Assembly (NCBI GenBank): GCA_036227345.1
Contig: CP109468.1
Location: forward strand, 6,324,001-6,388,000
Length of the DNA: 64,000 nucleotides
Source of the DNA: Streptomyces sp. NBC_01463
GTDB lineage: Bacteria; Actinomycetota; Actinomycetes; Streptomycetales; Streptomycetaceae
Reading direction: 5' to 3'
The translations under genes were made by a program, and so were the position numbers. Below the pieces are notes generated by a model. It had not been told where the DNA came from and ran no database searches. It was given only the letters and a program-made list of their open reading frames with translations. The stretch's first letter is position 1; the number at the start of each line of letters is the position of its first letter. Below are positions 54,253-62,583 of this stretch, piece after piece.

Positions 54253-54723
54253 TCAACGGGCTCCGGGTCCTGCCCCTTTGCCGCCCCTCCGTACTCGCCC
54301 CAGGATCACGCCCACCACCTGGTCGTTCCGCAGCACGCCCCACTCGCGGGAATCCGTGCTGCGCGACGCGTTGTCGCCGAGTACCGCCACGTGACCGGCC
54401 GGCACCGGCATCCGGTGGCCGACACCGGCGGTTCCCGCGGGGGCCGGCTGGCCGGACGTGGAGGCCAGTCGTTTGACGGCGTATCCGCTGCCGGCCGCCC
54501 CTGGTGCTGCCACACCGTCCCCCGCTGGTTCCCGCAGGACGACCGCCTGCCCCCGCCGCGGCCGGGCCAACGGGCGGCGCACCATGAGCAGTACGTCCCC
54601 GTCGGCGTAGGAGGGCTCCATGCTGATGCCCTCGACCGTGATCAGAAGCAGCGACGAGCGGGCCGCCGCCAGGAGGGCGATCGCCCCGCCCAGGATCCAT
54701 GGGGTGGCGGCGGCCCGGGTCAT
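54253..54723 (-). CDS. S26-family signal peptidase
   Basis: A 156-residue type I signal peptidase with one N-terminal helix (about 8-28). The nucleophile is Ser34 in GISMEPSY, the general base Lys84 in YAVKRLAS, and the C-terminal GDNASRSTDSREWG is family box E. It is shorter than housekeeping LepB, and its ATG overlaps the stop of an ABC ATPase gene. It is therefore probably a dedicated processor for an exported peptide, and a small Cys peptide with an ASA-A site lies in the same region. Confidence 0.87.
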   Translation of the reverse strand: MTRAAATPWILGGAIALLAAARSSLLLITVEGISMEPSYADGDVLLMVRRPLARPRRGQAVVLREPAGDGVAAPGAAGSGYAVKRLASTSGQPAPAGTAGVGHRMPVPAGHVAVLGDNASRSTDSREWGVLRNDQVVGVILGRVRRGGKGAGPGAR

Positions 54724-55520
54724 GGCCGTAGGGCCGGTCCTGCCGGGTGTTCCGGCTCATGCTCCGGCACGGGGGCCGGGGTGGTGAGGCGGTCCTCCAG
54801 GACCCGGCCGTCCCGCATGCTTACGACGCGCCCGCAGCGTGCGGCGATGCTCATGTCGTGGGTGGCCAGGACGAGGGTGGTGCCCTGTTCGGTGTTGAGG
54901 CGCAGGAGCAGTTCGATGATCTCCGTGCCCGTGGCGGAGTCGAGGTTGCCGGTGGGTTCGTCGGCCAGCAGCAGGGCCGGCTGGTTGATCAGGGCGCGGG
55001 CTATGGCCACGCGTTGCTGCTGGCCGCCCGAGAGCTGCGACGGCAGCCGGTCCTCACGGCCTGCCAGGCCGACGGCGGCGAGGAGTTCGCCGGCCCGTCC
55101 CAGTGCGGAAGCGCGGCTGCGGTAGGGCAGTACGGGGGCGACCACGTTGTCCCGGGCGGTCAGCGCGGGCAGGAGGTGGAAGCGCTGGAAGACGAAGCCG
55201 ATGCCCGCCCTGTAGCGGGTGAGTTCGGCCCGTCCGGCTGCCGTGATCTCGGTGCCGCCGACCGTGATGCTCCCGCCGTCGGCGGCCTCGATCGCGCCGA
55301 GCAGGTGCAGCAGGGTCGACTTGCCCGACCCGCTCGGCCCGATGAGCGCCACACTGCTGCCCGCCTCCAGCGTGAGCGAGACGTGATCGACGGCGGTGAC
55401 CGGGTCGGCCGTACCGGATCCGAACACCTTCAGGACGGATTCGGCGGTGATCACGGCTCCCGGGGCGCTCGCGGCCGCCGGGGGAGTGGTGGTCCGGGTC
55501 TTCGGGTTGCGGAATCTCAC
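54720..55520 (-). CDS. ABC transporter ATP-binding protein, MacB/LolD type
   Basis: A 266-residue ATPase with Walker [10 protein letters not shown], signature [16 protein letters not shown] and Walker [14 protein letters not shown], the last being the mark of MacB/LolD/FtsE-type proteins. GTG 55520 follows GAGGAGAA. It is the natural partner of the FtsX-type permease 259 bp upstream on the same strand; this gap contains no gene that I can support. Together they may export or extract a peptide or lipid, or confer immunity. Confidence 0.9.
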
Positions 55521-55779
55521 TGCTGTTCTCCTCGGTGGCTCCGTGGCTCGTCCCCGGTGTCCGGCCGTGCGGCGGGGGCGGCGGACCTGATCGCGTCCTC
55601 CCGCGGCGCGGCCGATGCCGGGAGGACGGTTCCGGGTGGCGCTGTGCGGCGGCGGCCGCGGTACGGATCGGCGGGCCGCATGCCCGGGACCACGGCCTGG
55701 TCCTCACCGGCCGGCACTACGGCTCCGGGTTCCCGGCACGAGCGGGGGACCTGCCGTGCGGATCCGTGCGGTGACCCCG

Positions 55780-59992: not shown

Positions 59993-60526
59993 ATGACTGT
60001 CCTGACGGCCGCTGTCGTCGTACTCGGTCTGCTCTGCCTGCTCAACCTCGCCGTGAGCACCGCGGTGATACGCCGGCTCCGCCTCCTCGGCATGCCCGTG
60101 GACCCTGCCTCAGGAGGCGGCCCGGCGATCGGCAGCCCCGTGCCCGCCTTCGACGTCATGGCCGATGACGGCACCTCGCTGACCCCGGACTTCCTCCGCG
60201 GGCGACGCACCCTGATCGCGTTCCTTTCCACGACCTGCTCGGCCTGCGTGGACCACGCTCCGGAACTGGCTCTGCGTGCGGCCGAGTTGGAGAGTTCCGG
60301 CACGCAGGTGCTCCTGGTGCTGCTGGACGACGGCGCGGACGCGCGTGGCCTGCGCAAACTCCTCTCGCCCGTCGGGACCCTGCTCACCGGCGAGAACGCG
60401 CTCGCGTTCATGACCGCCTGCCAGGTCGACGCGACCCCGACCTACTGGCTGACGGGCGAGGACGGCACCCTGGCCGCGGAGCTGCAGGATCTCGACTCCC
60501 TGCCGCTGCCCCTGCGGGCGGACTGA
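59993..60526 (+). CDS. Membrane-anchored TlpA/redoxin-like thiol-disulfide protein
   Basis: A 177-residue protein with one N-terminal membrane helix (about 4-27) and a thioredoxin-fold domain outside the membrane. The active site is CSAC (Cys82, Cys85) in STTCSACVDHAP, and the cis-Pro loop is DATPTYW. It is like TlpA/MauD proteins. ATG 59993 follows GGAGGAGA. It lies 5 bp before the ABC exporter gene and 121 bp after MauE. Expected role: forming, breaking or checking disulfides in the exported peptide. Confidence 0.87.
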   Translation: MTVLTAAVVVLGLLCLLNLAVSTAVIRRLRLLGMPVDPASGGGPAIGSPVPAFDVMADDGTSLTPDFLRGRRTLIAFLSTTCSACVDHAPELALRAAELESSGTQVLLVLLDDGADARGLRKLLSPVGTLLTGENALAFMTACQVDATPTYWLTGEDGTLAAELQDLDSLPLPLRAD

Positions 60527-60531
60527 GACCC

Positions 60532-62583
60532 TTGACCGCCCACGACCTCCGGGCCACGAGCCCGCACCCGAAGAACCGGCGTTCCAGGAGCACGCGAACC
60601 GAGAGCCCCGGCGGCCGCCTTCCGGGCGGAGCCGGGCCACGGTTGCGTACCGCACGCGCGGCCTCCGCCCCTTCCGCCCTTCGCCTGCTCCGCAGCTCCT
60701 GCCTGCTGTATCTGCGTGCCGCACCCGGTCCGGCCGCGCTTCTGCTCCTCACCGCCGTGCTGTCCGGCGCCGCACCCGTGGTCACCGCCTGGGCGGCCAA
60801 GGCGATCCTGGACCAGCTGGGACGCCACGGGGGTCCTCCGCTCTGGGTGTCCGTCACCGTCCTCTCGGTCACCGGGGCAGTGGTCGCGATCGCGGCGCAG
60901 ACCGCTCAGTACGGCGACAGGGAGGCGGACCGGCTGGTCACCCTCCACACGCAGACCGAACTCTTCACCGCGGTCAGCCGTGCGCAAGGACTCGCCGAGC
61001 TGGAGGACCCCGCCTTCCAGGACCGTCTGCAACTCGCCAGACAGGCCAGCCAGACCAGTCCCCAGCTCGTGGCCGGCATGGTGCTCGGCACGGTGCAGAG
61101 CATGCTGACCGTCGGAGGATTCGTCGCCGTCCTGTGGGCCTTCTCCCCGCTCATCGCTCTTCTGGTGCTCTCCGCCACCCTCCCGGCGCTCTACGCCCAG
61201 GTGAAGCTGGGCCGCCGGCGGAGCGACATGGCGCAGCTGGTCACTCCCTTCCTCCGGCGCCAGATCTTCCACGCGGCCCTGCTGACCGACGTGCGGGCCG
61301 CGAAGGAGATCCGCCTGTACGGACTCGGCCGGTTCTTCCGGGAGCGGATGCTCGGCGACCTGGGATCGGCCCAAGCGGGTGAGCGACGCGTGGACCGGAC
61401 CGTCCTTCGGGTCGAATCCGCCCTCGCCCTGCTGTCGGCAGGCCTTGCCGGGGTCTCGATCGCCATCGCCGTGCACCTGATCGACACGGGGCGGGGGAGC
61501 ATCGGGCAGCTGGCGATCGTCACCGCGGCACTCGCCACCGTCCAGCTGACCATCTCCTCACTGACCGGGGTCTACGGCACCATCAGCCAGTCCCTGACAC
61601 TCTTCGGCCACTACAGCGAGCTGGTCGGTCCGGGCCCGGCACCGGCCGGTGATCTGTGCGAGGCGCCGCCCCTCACCGAGGGCATCGCCCTTCGCGACGT
61701 CTGGTTCCGCTACCACCCCAGCCATGAATGGGTCCTGCGCGGAGTGGACCTGGAGATCCGCCCCGGCGAGTCCGTGGCCCTCGTGGGCCTGAACGGCGCG
61801 GGCAAGTCCACGCTCGTCAAACTCATGGCCGGTCTCTACCGGCCGACGCGGGGCGAGGTCACCTGGAACGACACCGACCTGTCGGCCGTCGACCTGACCT
61901 CGCTGCGGCGCCGCATCGGCGTGGTGTTCCAGGACTTCATGGCGTACGACATGTCCGCCGCCGACAACATCGCCATCGGCGACCTCGGCGCTGCCGGGGA
62001 CCGGCCGAGGCTGCGCAGGGCGGCCGACCGGGCCGGCATCGACACCGTCCTCCACGCGCTGCCCCACGGATACGACACCTGGCTCAGCCGGATGCACCTG
62101 CCCGAGCCCGCCCCGACCACCACGGTGGGCCGCGGGCGACGCCGCCTGTCACGCTCCGCACCCCCGGAGCCGGAACCGGACCCGGCTCCGGACAGGACGG
62201 GTGTGCTCCTGTCCGGAGGCCAATGGCAGCGCGTCGCCCTGGCCAGGGCACTTCTGCGGACCGATGCCGACCTGCTGATCCTCGACGAACCCTCCTCCGG
62301 GCTGGACCCGGTCGCCGAGCGCGAGATCCACCTCGGACTCCGGGAACACCGGCGGGGGCGGAGCAGCCTGCTCATCTCCCACCGGCTCAACACCGTCCGC
62401 GACGCGGACCGGATCCTGGTCCTGGAGCAGGGCCGGGTGGTGGAGGAAGGCACGCACTCCGCCCTTCTCGACCTGGACGGAAAGTACGCGCACATGTTCC
62501 GCTCGCAGGCGGACGGCTACCAACTGGCGGACGAGGAGCAGACCCGCCCCGGCCACAAGGATCTCCCCGGCGCGTGTAGTTGA
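60532..62583 (+). CDS. ABC exporter, fused membrane and ATPase domains
   Basis: A 683-residue half-transporter with a basic N-terminus of about 60 residues, six helices to about 380, and an ATPase domain. Walker A is GLNGAGKST, the signature is LSGGQWQRVALARA, and Walker B is LLILDEPSSGLD. There is no C39 peptidase domain. A Pro/Arg-rich insert (about 524-558) sits just before the signature motif, which is unusual. The start is TTG 60532, 5 bp after redoxin; the RBS is weak. It is the likely exporter of the Cys peptide. Confidence 0.85.
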   Translation: MTAHDLRATSPHPKNRRSRSTRTESPGGRLPGGAGPRLRTARAASAPSALRLLRSSCLLYLRAAPGPAALLLLTAVLSGAAPVVTAWAAKAILDQLGRHGGPPLWVSVTVLSVTGAVVAIAAQTAQYGDREADRLVTLHTQTELFTAVSRAQGLAELEDPAFQDRLQLARQASQTSPQLVAGMVLGTVQSMLTVGGFVAVLWAFSPLIALLVLSATLPALYAQVKLGRRRSDMAQLVTPFLRRQIFHAALLTDVRAAKEIRLYGLGRFFRERMLGDLGSAQAGERRVDRTVLRVESALALLSAGLAGVSIAIAVHLIDTGRGSIGQLAIVTAALATVQLTISSLTGVYGTISQSLTLFGHYSELVGPGPAPAGDLCEAPPLTEGIALRDVWFRYHPSHEWVLRGVDLEIRPGESVALVGLNGAGKSTLVKLMAGLYRPTRGEVTWNDTDLSAVDLTSLRRRIGVVFQDFMAYDMSAADNIAIGDLGAAGDRPRLRRAADRAGIDTVLHALPHGYDTWLSRMHLPEPAPTTTVGRGRRRLSRSAPPEPEPDPAPDRTGVLLSGGQWQRVALARALLRTDADLLILDEPSSGLDPVAEREIHLGLREHRRGRSSLLISHRLNTVRDADRILVLEQGRVVEEGTHSALLDLDGKYAHMFRSQADGYQLADEEQTRPGHKDLPGACS

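Follow-up and report, generated by a model that had tools for sequence, protein, structure and literature searches.

The stretch of DNA analysed here, referred to as the window, comprises 64,000 nucleotides of Streptomyces sp. NBC_01463 (assembly GCA_036227345.1, contig CP109468.1, positions 6,324,001 to 6,388,000 of the forward strand), and contains at positions 54253-62583 a gene cluster built around a 69-residue peptide with four cysteines. The cluster is located on contig 1 at about 6.38 Mb of 9.0 Mb and is divided into two divergent operons. On the forward strand, the peptide gene is followed by genes for a MauE-type membrane protein, a membrane redoxin with a CSAC motif and an ATP-binding cassette (ABC) exporter; the reverse strand carries genes for an FtsX permease, a MacB-type ATPase and an S26 peptidase, the last two overlapping. 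An RNase P RNA gene directly adjoins the cluster on one side, and a GDSL lipase gene (62653) flanks it on the other. An earlier note, written from the letters of this DNA, had described these parts as a candidate new disulfide-peptide cluster of bacteriocin-like type, and all of them, including the peptide with its good ribosome binding site, were found at the coordinates it gave (Table 1). Its statement that LanM, YcaO, radical-SAM and C39 proteins are absent also held: complete Pfam lists for nine window proteins (the seven cluster proteins, the GDSL lipase and one small open reading frame) were free of domains of the lanthionine, YcaO, radical-SAM and C39 types. No LanB/C, LanM or other dehydratase or cyclase, and no glycosyltransferase, was found among the same nine proteins, the rest of the genome not having been searched. 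For the two ABC proteins, the NCBIfam matches considered were the best 25.

Table 1. Features of the gene cluster and its immediate border in the window.
Feature	Coordinates	Strand	Basis
Precursor peptide, 69 aa, 4 Cys	58985-59194	+	sequence; held-out family profile, E=1.8e-7
Precursor leader, 24 aa, ends AKASA (AxA site)	58985-59056	+	predicted cleavage site
Precursor core, 45 aa, 4 Cys, net charge +3	59057-59191	+	predicted cleavage site
GAGGAG ribosome binding site of precursor	58974-58979	+	sequence
Hairpin (15-bp stem, loop of 7 nt) in the precursor-MauE gap	59245-59281	+	folding z-score
MauE-type membrane protein, 185 aa	59314-59871	+	PF07291, 77.7 bits (cut-off 27)
MauD/TlpA-like membrane-anchored redoxin, 177 aa, CSAC (C82, C85)	59993-60526	+	AhpC-TSA, 28.8 bits
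ABC exporter, membrane and ATPase domains, without C39 peptidase domain	60532-62583	+	Pfam; start codon uncertain
S26 signal-peptidase-like protein, 156 aa	54253-54723	-	family match
MacB/LolD-type ABC ATPase, overlapping S26 gene	54720-55520	-	family match
FtsX-type permease, 947 aa	55780-58623	-	Pfam; putative pump role
RNase P RNA (class A)	53506-53907	+	299.6 bits

Judged by its sequence, the 69-residue peptide is a real precursor, beyond chance, because the guanine plus cytosine content at third codon positions of its gene is 91%, a 93% identical protein is present in public data (P0002), all four cysteines recur in the orthologue of Streptomyces sp. A1277, and a profile of the 54 remaining aligned family members retrieved it from among 822 window segments (E=1.8e-7; next best 0.011). 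The next best segment, at 58828-58962 on the reverse strand upstream of FtsX, is a 45-residue open frame with four cysteines and without a leader; it is probably a chance match and was rejected as a second precursor. For the predicted core with two disulfides, a monoisotopic mass of 4904.27 Da was computed. The orthologues of NBC_01463 and A1277 differ by 12 codons, too few to weigh (nonsynonymous divergence dN 0.054, synonymous divergence dS 0.119); the values for FtsX are 0.024 and 0.092.

A direct protein search with the peptide returned two clusters of near-identical copies only, and the family was therefore approached through MauE, which matched in at least 63 of 392 Streptomyces genomes. 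Such genome counts are lower bounds that do not prove absence, as scoring in the large searches was confined to the top 8 candidates per genome for MauE and the top 16 for the precursor. Sixty MauE-fetched regions of 11.1-14.5 kb, together with the window, made up 61 loci. These were scanned with a leader profile of 19 columns, seeded with 26 leaders to the exclusion of the window's own and applied at a cut-off of 7.5 bits, which identified 63 peptides in 56 of the 61 loci (window included) and one more in A1277; four precursors, in L090 and three Acrocarpospora loci, were found by eye. The earlier note had proposed a search for small Cys peptides next to MauE, redoxin, ABC and S26 genes, and had made its reading depend on conservation of the peptide in homologous loci. 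Such conservation was seen: a precursor was present in 56 of the 60 MauE-fetched regions (L090, missed by the profile, counted), and in 55 of them a leader with a hypervariable Cys-rich core stood beside MauE, redoxin, ABC exporter and S26 together. Taken singly, the redoxin was found in 58, the ABC protein in 59 and S26 in 57 of these regions.

The association also holds in the opposite direction. Forty regions that the precursor retrieved from 21 previously unused genomes contained MauE in 38 cases and redoxin, ABC and S26 in 39 each. The order precursor-MauE-redoxin-ABC-S26 occurred in 39 of 56 and 12 of 39 loci, and 25 distinct arrangements were counted in 95 loci, those missing a gene included. 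The gene order is thus shuffled and the content kept, which favours functional linkage over shared ancestry of one block. As a control, 30 other MauE loci, namely 28 further hits of the phylum-wide search (26 from outside the class) and two additional MauE-family genes of the genome studied here, gave no leader match of 5 bits or more within about 1.5 kb on either side. With this two-way association, the conserved leader and the even number of cysteines described below, the picture of a leader-bearing Cys peptide served by disulfide, peptidase and export genes is supported. Families recurring in at least five of the 61 loci looked by eye like the cassette, the precursor, and regulators or shadow frames, as delivered by a crude gene caller and with the families unscanned; from their appearance we take some of these neighbours to be SARP- and AraC-like regulators.

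Regarding host range, a search of 394 genomes of the class with the precursor alignment gave a match in at least 25, of which 7 belong to the same genus (4 already in the alignment) and 18 to one other family, all matches being spread over 9 of 137 genera. The second host family is perhaps, as a guess, Streptosporangiaceae, since three Acrocarpospora genomes of that family carry the cassette with a six-Cys precursor whose leader ends in AAA. The phylum-wide precursor search hit 3 of 396 genomes, two of them known same-genus members and the third so weak (E=0.0038, three internal stops) that it was taken as chance; no credible precursor outside the class was found among the 16 candidates scored per genome. 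A plasmid tblastn with MauE gave no match. Several loci encode more than one different precursor, either as tandem copies or with a spacing of about 6 kb (L048 and L171; L083 and L088, with positions of about 5.7 and 11.7 kb in the oriented sequence), and one genome of the second family (G881) yielded ten precursor hits on several contigs (regions L168, L193 and L201-L203).

The leaders, conserved and helical, follow the consensus L..LG[DS][RA]LL.R[LF]VPK..A.A, and in 97 of 102 precursors the profile ends on AxA. AxA matches the -3/-1 positions typical of type I signal peptidase sites, and the window S26 protein contains Ser and Lys at S34 and K84, the putative catalytic dyad by comparison with signal peptidase I. 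Because charges occur throughout (longest uncharged run 6.5 residues on average, range 3-13), most leaders appear unlike Sec signals, as judged by charge and with no predictor. The window leader is likewise charged, has no long hydrophobic run and ends in AxA instead of a double glycine.

Among 102 distinct cores, 3 have four, 58 six, 28 eight, 12 ten and 1 seven cysteines. The count is even in 101 of these, in 44 of 45 representatives at 40% identity and in 19 of 19 at 30%; the last result would be expected about twice in a million from a fair coin. At least two cysteines were required for peptide selection, and parity played no part in it; the four precursors found by eye, selected for at least four, have six each. 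Eight or ten cysteines are found in 40 of the 102 cores, as against four in the window. Cores range from about 28 to 57 residues, are present as tandem copies in L048 and L171, and are more variable than leaders, with a mean pairwise identity among 34 representatives of 25% versus 41% for the last 19 leader residues. Even parity, together with the CxC of MauE and the CxxC of the redoxin, makes pairing of all cysteines the simplest reading, so that the products may be expected to be disulfide-paired. Neither Pfam nor NCBIfam contains a family for these precursors (alignment A1 holds 55 of 58 distinct ones; those of L035, L038 and L056 were left out). Weak single-member matches of these 55 (E 0.0096-0.077), namely two to the choline sulfatase C-terminus and one each to duramycin-B-like, beta-defensin, DUF7155 and cinnamycin families, were judged to be noise.

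In MauE, the motif CxCFG (C112, C114) as well as R129, N130, K27 and E69 are invariant in 33 aligned relatives, taken from 54 extracted sequences plus the window, and the structure model is helical with a mean predicted local distance difference test score (pLDDT) of 91. The CxC loop of these 33 proteins contains on average 3.9 Lys plus Arg versus 0.33 Asp plus Glu. The redoxins have an uncharged N-terminal tail and RRLR or KRLR after the helix; the net charge of the eight residues following it is +1 or higher in 83 of 106 frames, -1 or lower in 14, and +3 in the window. S26 proteins are more positive after the helix than before it in 69 of 96 cases, with the reverse in 18, and that of the window, with one Arg on either side, is neutral on topology. 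Positive charges before the helix were seen in the two of four housekeeping signal peptidases of this genome with readable N-termini, and in a lipoprotein-like TlpA-type redoxin of the same genome. These patterns favour a cytoplasmic position, more so for the redox centres than for the peptidase. Independently of this, MauE and a redoxin-like domain are fused in one frame in L086 (5983-7536), followed by a Cys-rich tail that by eye we take to be reminiscent of the methylamine dehydrogenase light chain.

We propose that the precursor, whose amphipathic leader reads xxLGDRLLxRLVPxxxAxA in the family, is brought to the membrane by this leader, where MauE (CxC) and the redoxin (CSAC) would oxidise and pair the cysteines and MauE would hand the electrons on, presumably to quinone. 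The S26 peptidase would then cleave after AxA, and the dedicated ABC exporter would release the peptide, possibly before the cleavage. In the weakest step, the product may act as an antimicrobial or competition peptide from which FtsX/MacB shields the producer. That the product is a disulfide-bonded, leader-processed and exported peptide appears very probable; that the locus makes a small exported peptide with a core held by two predicted disulfides through all these steps is likely. An antimicrobial role is somewhat favoured, and bacteriocin and immunity, the words chosen in the earlier note, are putative labels. More tentatively, the class may be RiPP-like (ribosomally synthesised and post-translationally modified peptides) and defined by enzyme-made disulfides installed at the cytoplasmic face, the MauE CxC loop and the redoxin domain forming an oxidising unit inside, an inverted S26 protein cutting the AxA leader there and the ABC protein exporting a mini-protein already folded and locked by disulfides. 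We regard such inside maturation as a possibility of the lesser kind, because the helix finder is crude and misplaces some helices, start codons are partly guessed and the positive-inside rule is statistical.

FtsX is accessory in the family, being present in 4 of the 60 MauE-fetched and 2 of the 40 precursor-fetched regions, and together with the MacB ATPase it is a candidate self-protection pump. Near the precursor it was seen in L067 (as a partial match), L071, L077, L194, L195 and the window. The 119-nt gap between the precursor and MauE genes, which contains the strong hairpin, folds with a z-score of -4.05, and values below -2 were obtained for 23 of 46 such gaps tested (window included), so that half of the gaps show excess stability. 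The hairpin is possibly an attenuator or a stabiliser of the mRNA end that lets the precursor exceed the enzymes. Neither a sigma-70-type promoter nor a simple terminator was found in 58500-59320.

Several observations weigh against the proposed pathway. L089 has a full cassette in which no precursor was found by profile or by eye, and L057, L086 and L092, searched with the leader profile, gave no precursor and lack the full cassette as well. The control of other MauE loci covered about 1.5 kb per side, the L085 core has seven cysteines, and the window leader scored 7.9 bits, near the cut-off and second weakest of the 63. AlphaFold was uninformative for the precursor, with a core without fold at a pLDDT of 50. 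The A1277 locus (L122) is syntenic, with a DNA identity of 93.5% across its main block of 5.4 kb, but within 9084-10969 MauE is split into two frames by a frame break and a 1.4-kb deletion fuses the redoxin, just before its CxxC, to ABC residue 360; either the locus has decayed, so that A1277 can do without the pathway, or its assembly contains an error. Finally, product, disulfides and activity are predictions from the genes, and the redox direction is not readable from the sequence.

This last point bears on a different assignment of roles, in which MauE and the redoxin reduce or isomerise in the manner of CcdA/TlpA, keeping cysteines reduced or reshuffling wrong disulfides while general oxidants form the bonds. 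Relatives of TlpA and ResA are mostly thiol reductases, the redoxin matches the MauD model weakly (E=0.00097) and the ResA, TlpA and DsbE models weakly as well, and cores with up to ten cysteines need isomerisation; the window core, however, needs just two disulfides, and an even count implies a paired end product and not a thiol. We consider this assignment a minority possibility. The same machinery might instead deliver a peptide that serves the producer in signalling or development: no target is known, and the frequency of the MauE marker in the genus fits either role. Yet hypervariable tandem paralogues, as seen here, occur more often among competition peptides than where a signal has a single receptor, which leaves a signalling product somewhat unlikely.

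Alternatively, the cysteines could carry thioethers or metal, with MauE and redoxin merely protecting them. The weak lantibiotic matches among the 55 precursors (cinnamycin, E=0.0096; duramycin-B-like, E=0.021) point that way, and a rare enzyme in the family loci could have been missed because the gene caller was crude and the recurring families were unscanned. As no thioether-forming enzyme is present among the nine scanned window proteins and the parity rule fits Cys-Cys pairing, we regard this explanation as improbable. Least probable by far is that MauE and redoxin work for methylamine dehydrogenase, as their family names might suggest, and stand next to the peptide by accident; a search of further genomes by the precursor alone recovers the cassette, and this reciprocal association comes close to refuting it. 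The methylamine dehydrogenase light chain had no match in the genome, but the control genomes gave none either.

The locus appears to belong to a large, almost unstudied gene cluster family in soil actinomycetes and is thus likely to yield new peptides with antimicrobial or signalling roles. If this is right, a widespread peptide class exists that current family libraries do not name, as indicated by the MauE marker in the genus and by the ten precursor hits in one genome; it would comprise mini-proteins with disulfides, about 28-57 residues long, that can be mined for by a simple leader rule, and provide small peptide substrates for a direct test of the redox direction and membrane side of MauE/MauD.

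Of the features expected of a RiPP or bacteriocin, the locus has an encoded precursor with conserved leader and variable core, and clustered maturation, peptidase and export genes. Bacteriocins of the sublancin/glycocin type have a leader, disulfides, dedicated thiol-disulfide oxidoreductases and ABC export, all of which (the disulfides by prediction) are shared by the window cluster, whereas its leader ends in AxA instead of a double glycine, its oxidoreductases are of other families and glycosyltransferase and C39 domains are lacking among the scanned proteins. TMcins share membrane-bound maturation, a disulfide enzyme, a leader protease and an ABC transporter, but are described in the available text as having a precursor with a transmembrane helix, one disulfide, a DsbA-like TmcD and an S2P-clan protease (PMC13252029); the window precursor has a leader without a long hydrophobic run, and its peptidase is S26. 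For MauE and MauD of methylamine dehydrogenase maturation, a disulfide role has been speculated (as cited in PMC7794033); the same two families are involved, MauD by a weak match, with an enzyme subunit as substrate there and small exported peptides here. Cinnamycin-type lantibiotics share a leader ending in AxA, with a postulated type I signal peptidase cut, but are lanthipeptides made by CinM, and the accessible passages mention no clustered peptidase and no MauE or redoxin (PMC12837462). The available part of a review of RiPP leader proteases contains no mention of signal peptidase, S26, AXA or cinnamycin (PMC10885120).

Closest is decRiPPter (Kloosterman 2020, PMC7794033), the sole report of mauE in candidate RiPP clusters that was found in a search of open-licence literature, so that later work may exist. 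As far as its accessible text goes, it lists three Streptomyces candidate RiPP families with mauE, one also with mauD, whose predicted precursors have at least eight cysteines and whose clusters were filtered for peptidase and transporter, with no product (PMC7794033). The earlier note's word new is only partly right because these families had already been listed. Streptomyces host, mauE and Cys-containing predicted precursors are shared, and the four cysteines of the window core, as against eight or more, set it apart as far as the descriptions go. The leader motif, AxA site, even-Cys rule, S26 link and second bacterial family are not described for the mauE families in the available text of that report (PMC7794033). 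With the class defined here by leader, parity, cassette and host range, a class first hinted at in 2020 would have the window locus as a four-Cys member whose peptidase gene lies next to FtsX/MacB in a divergent operon.

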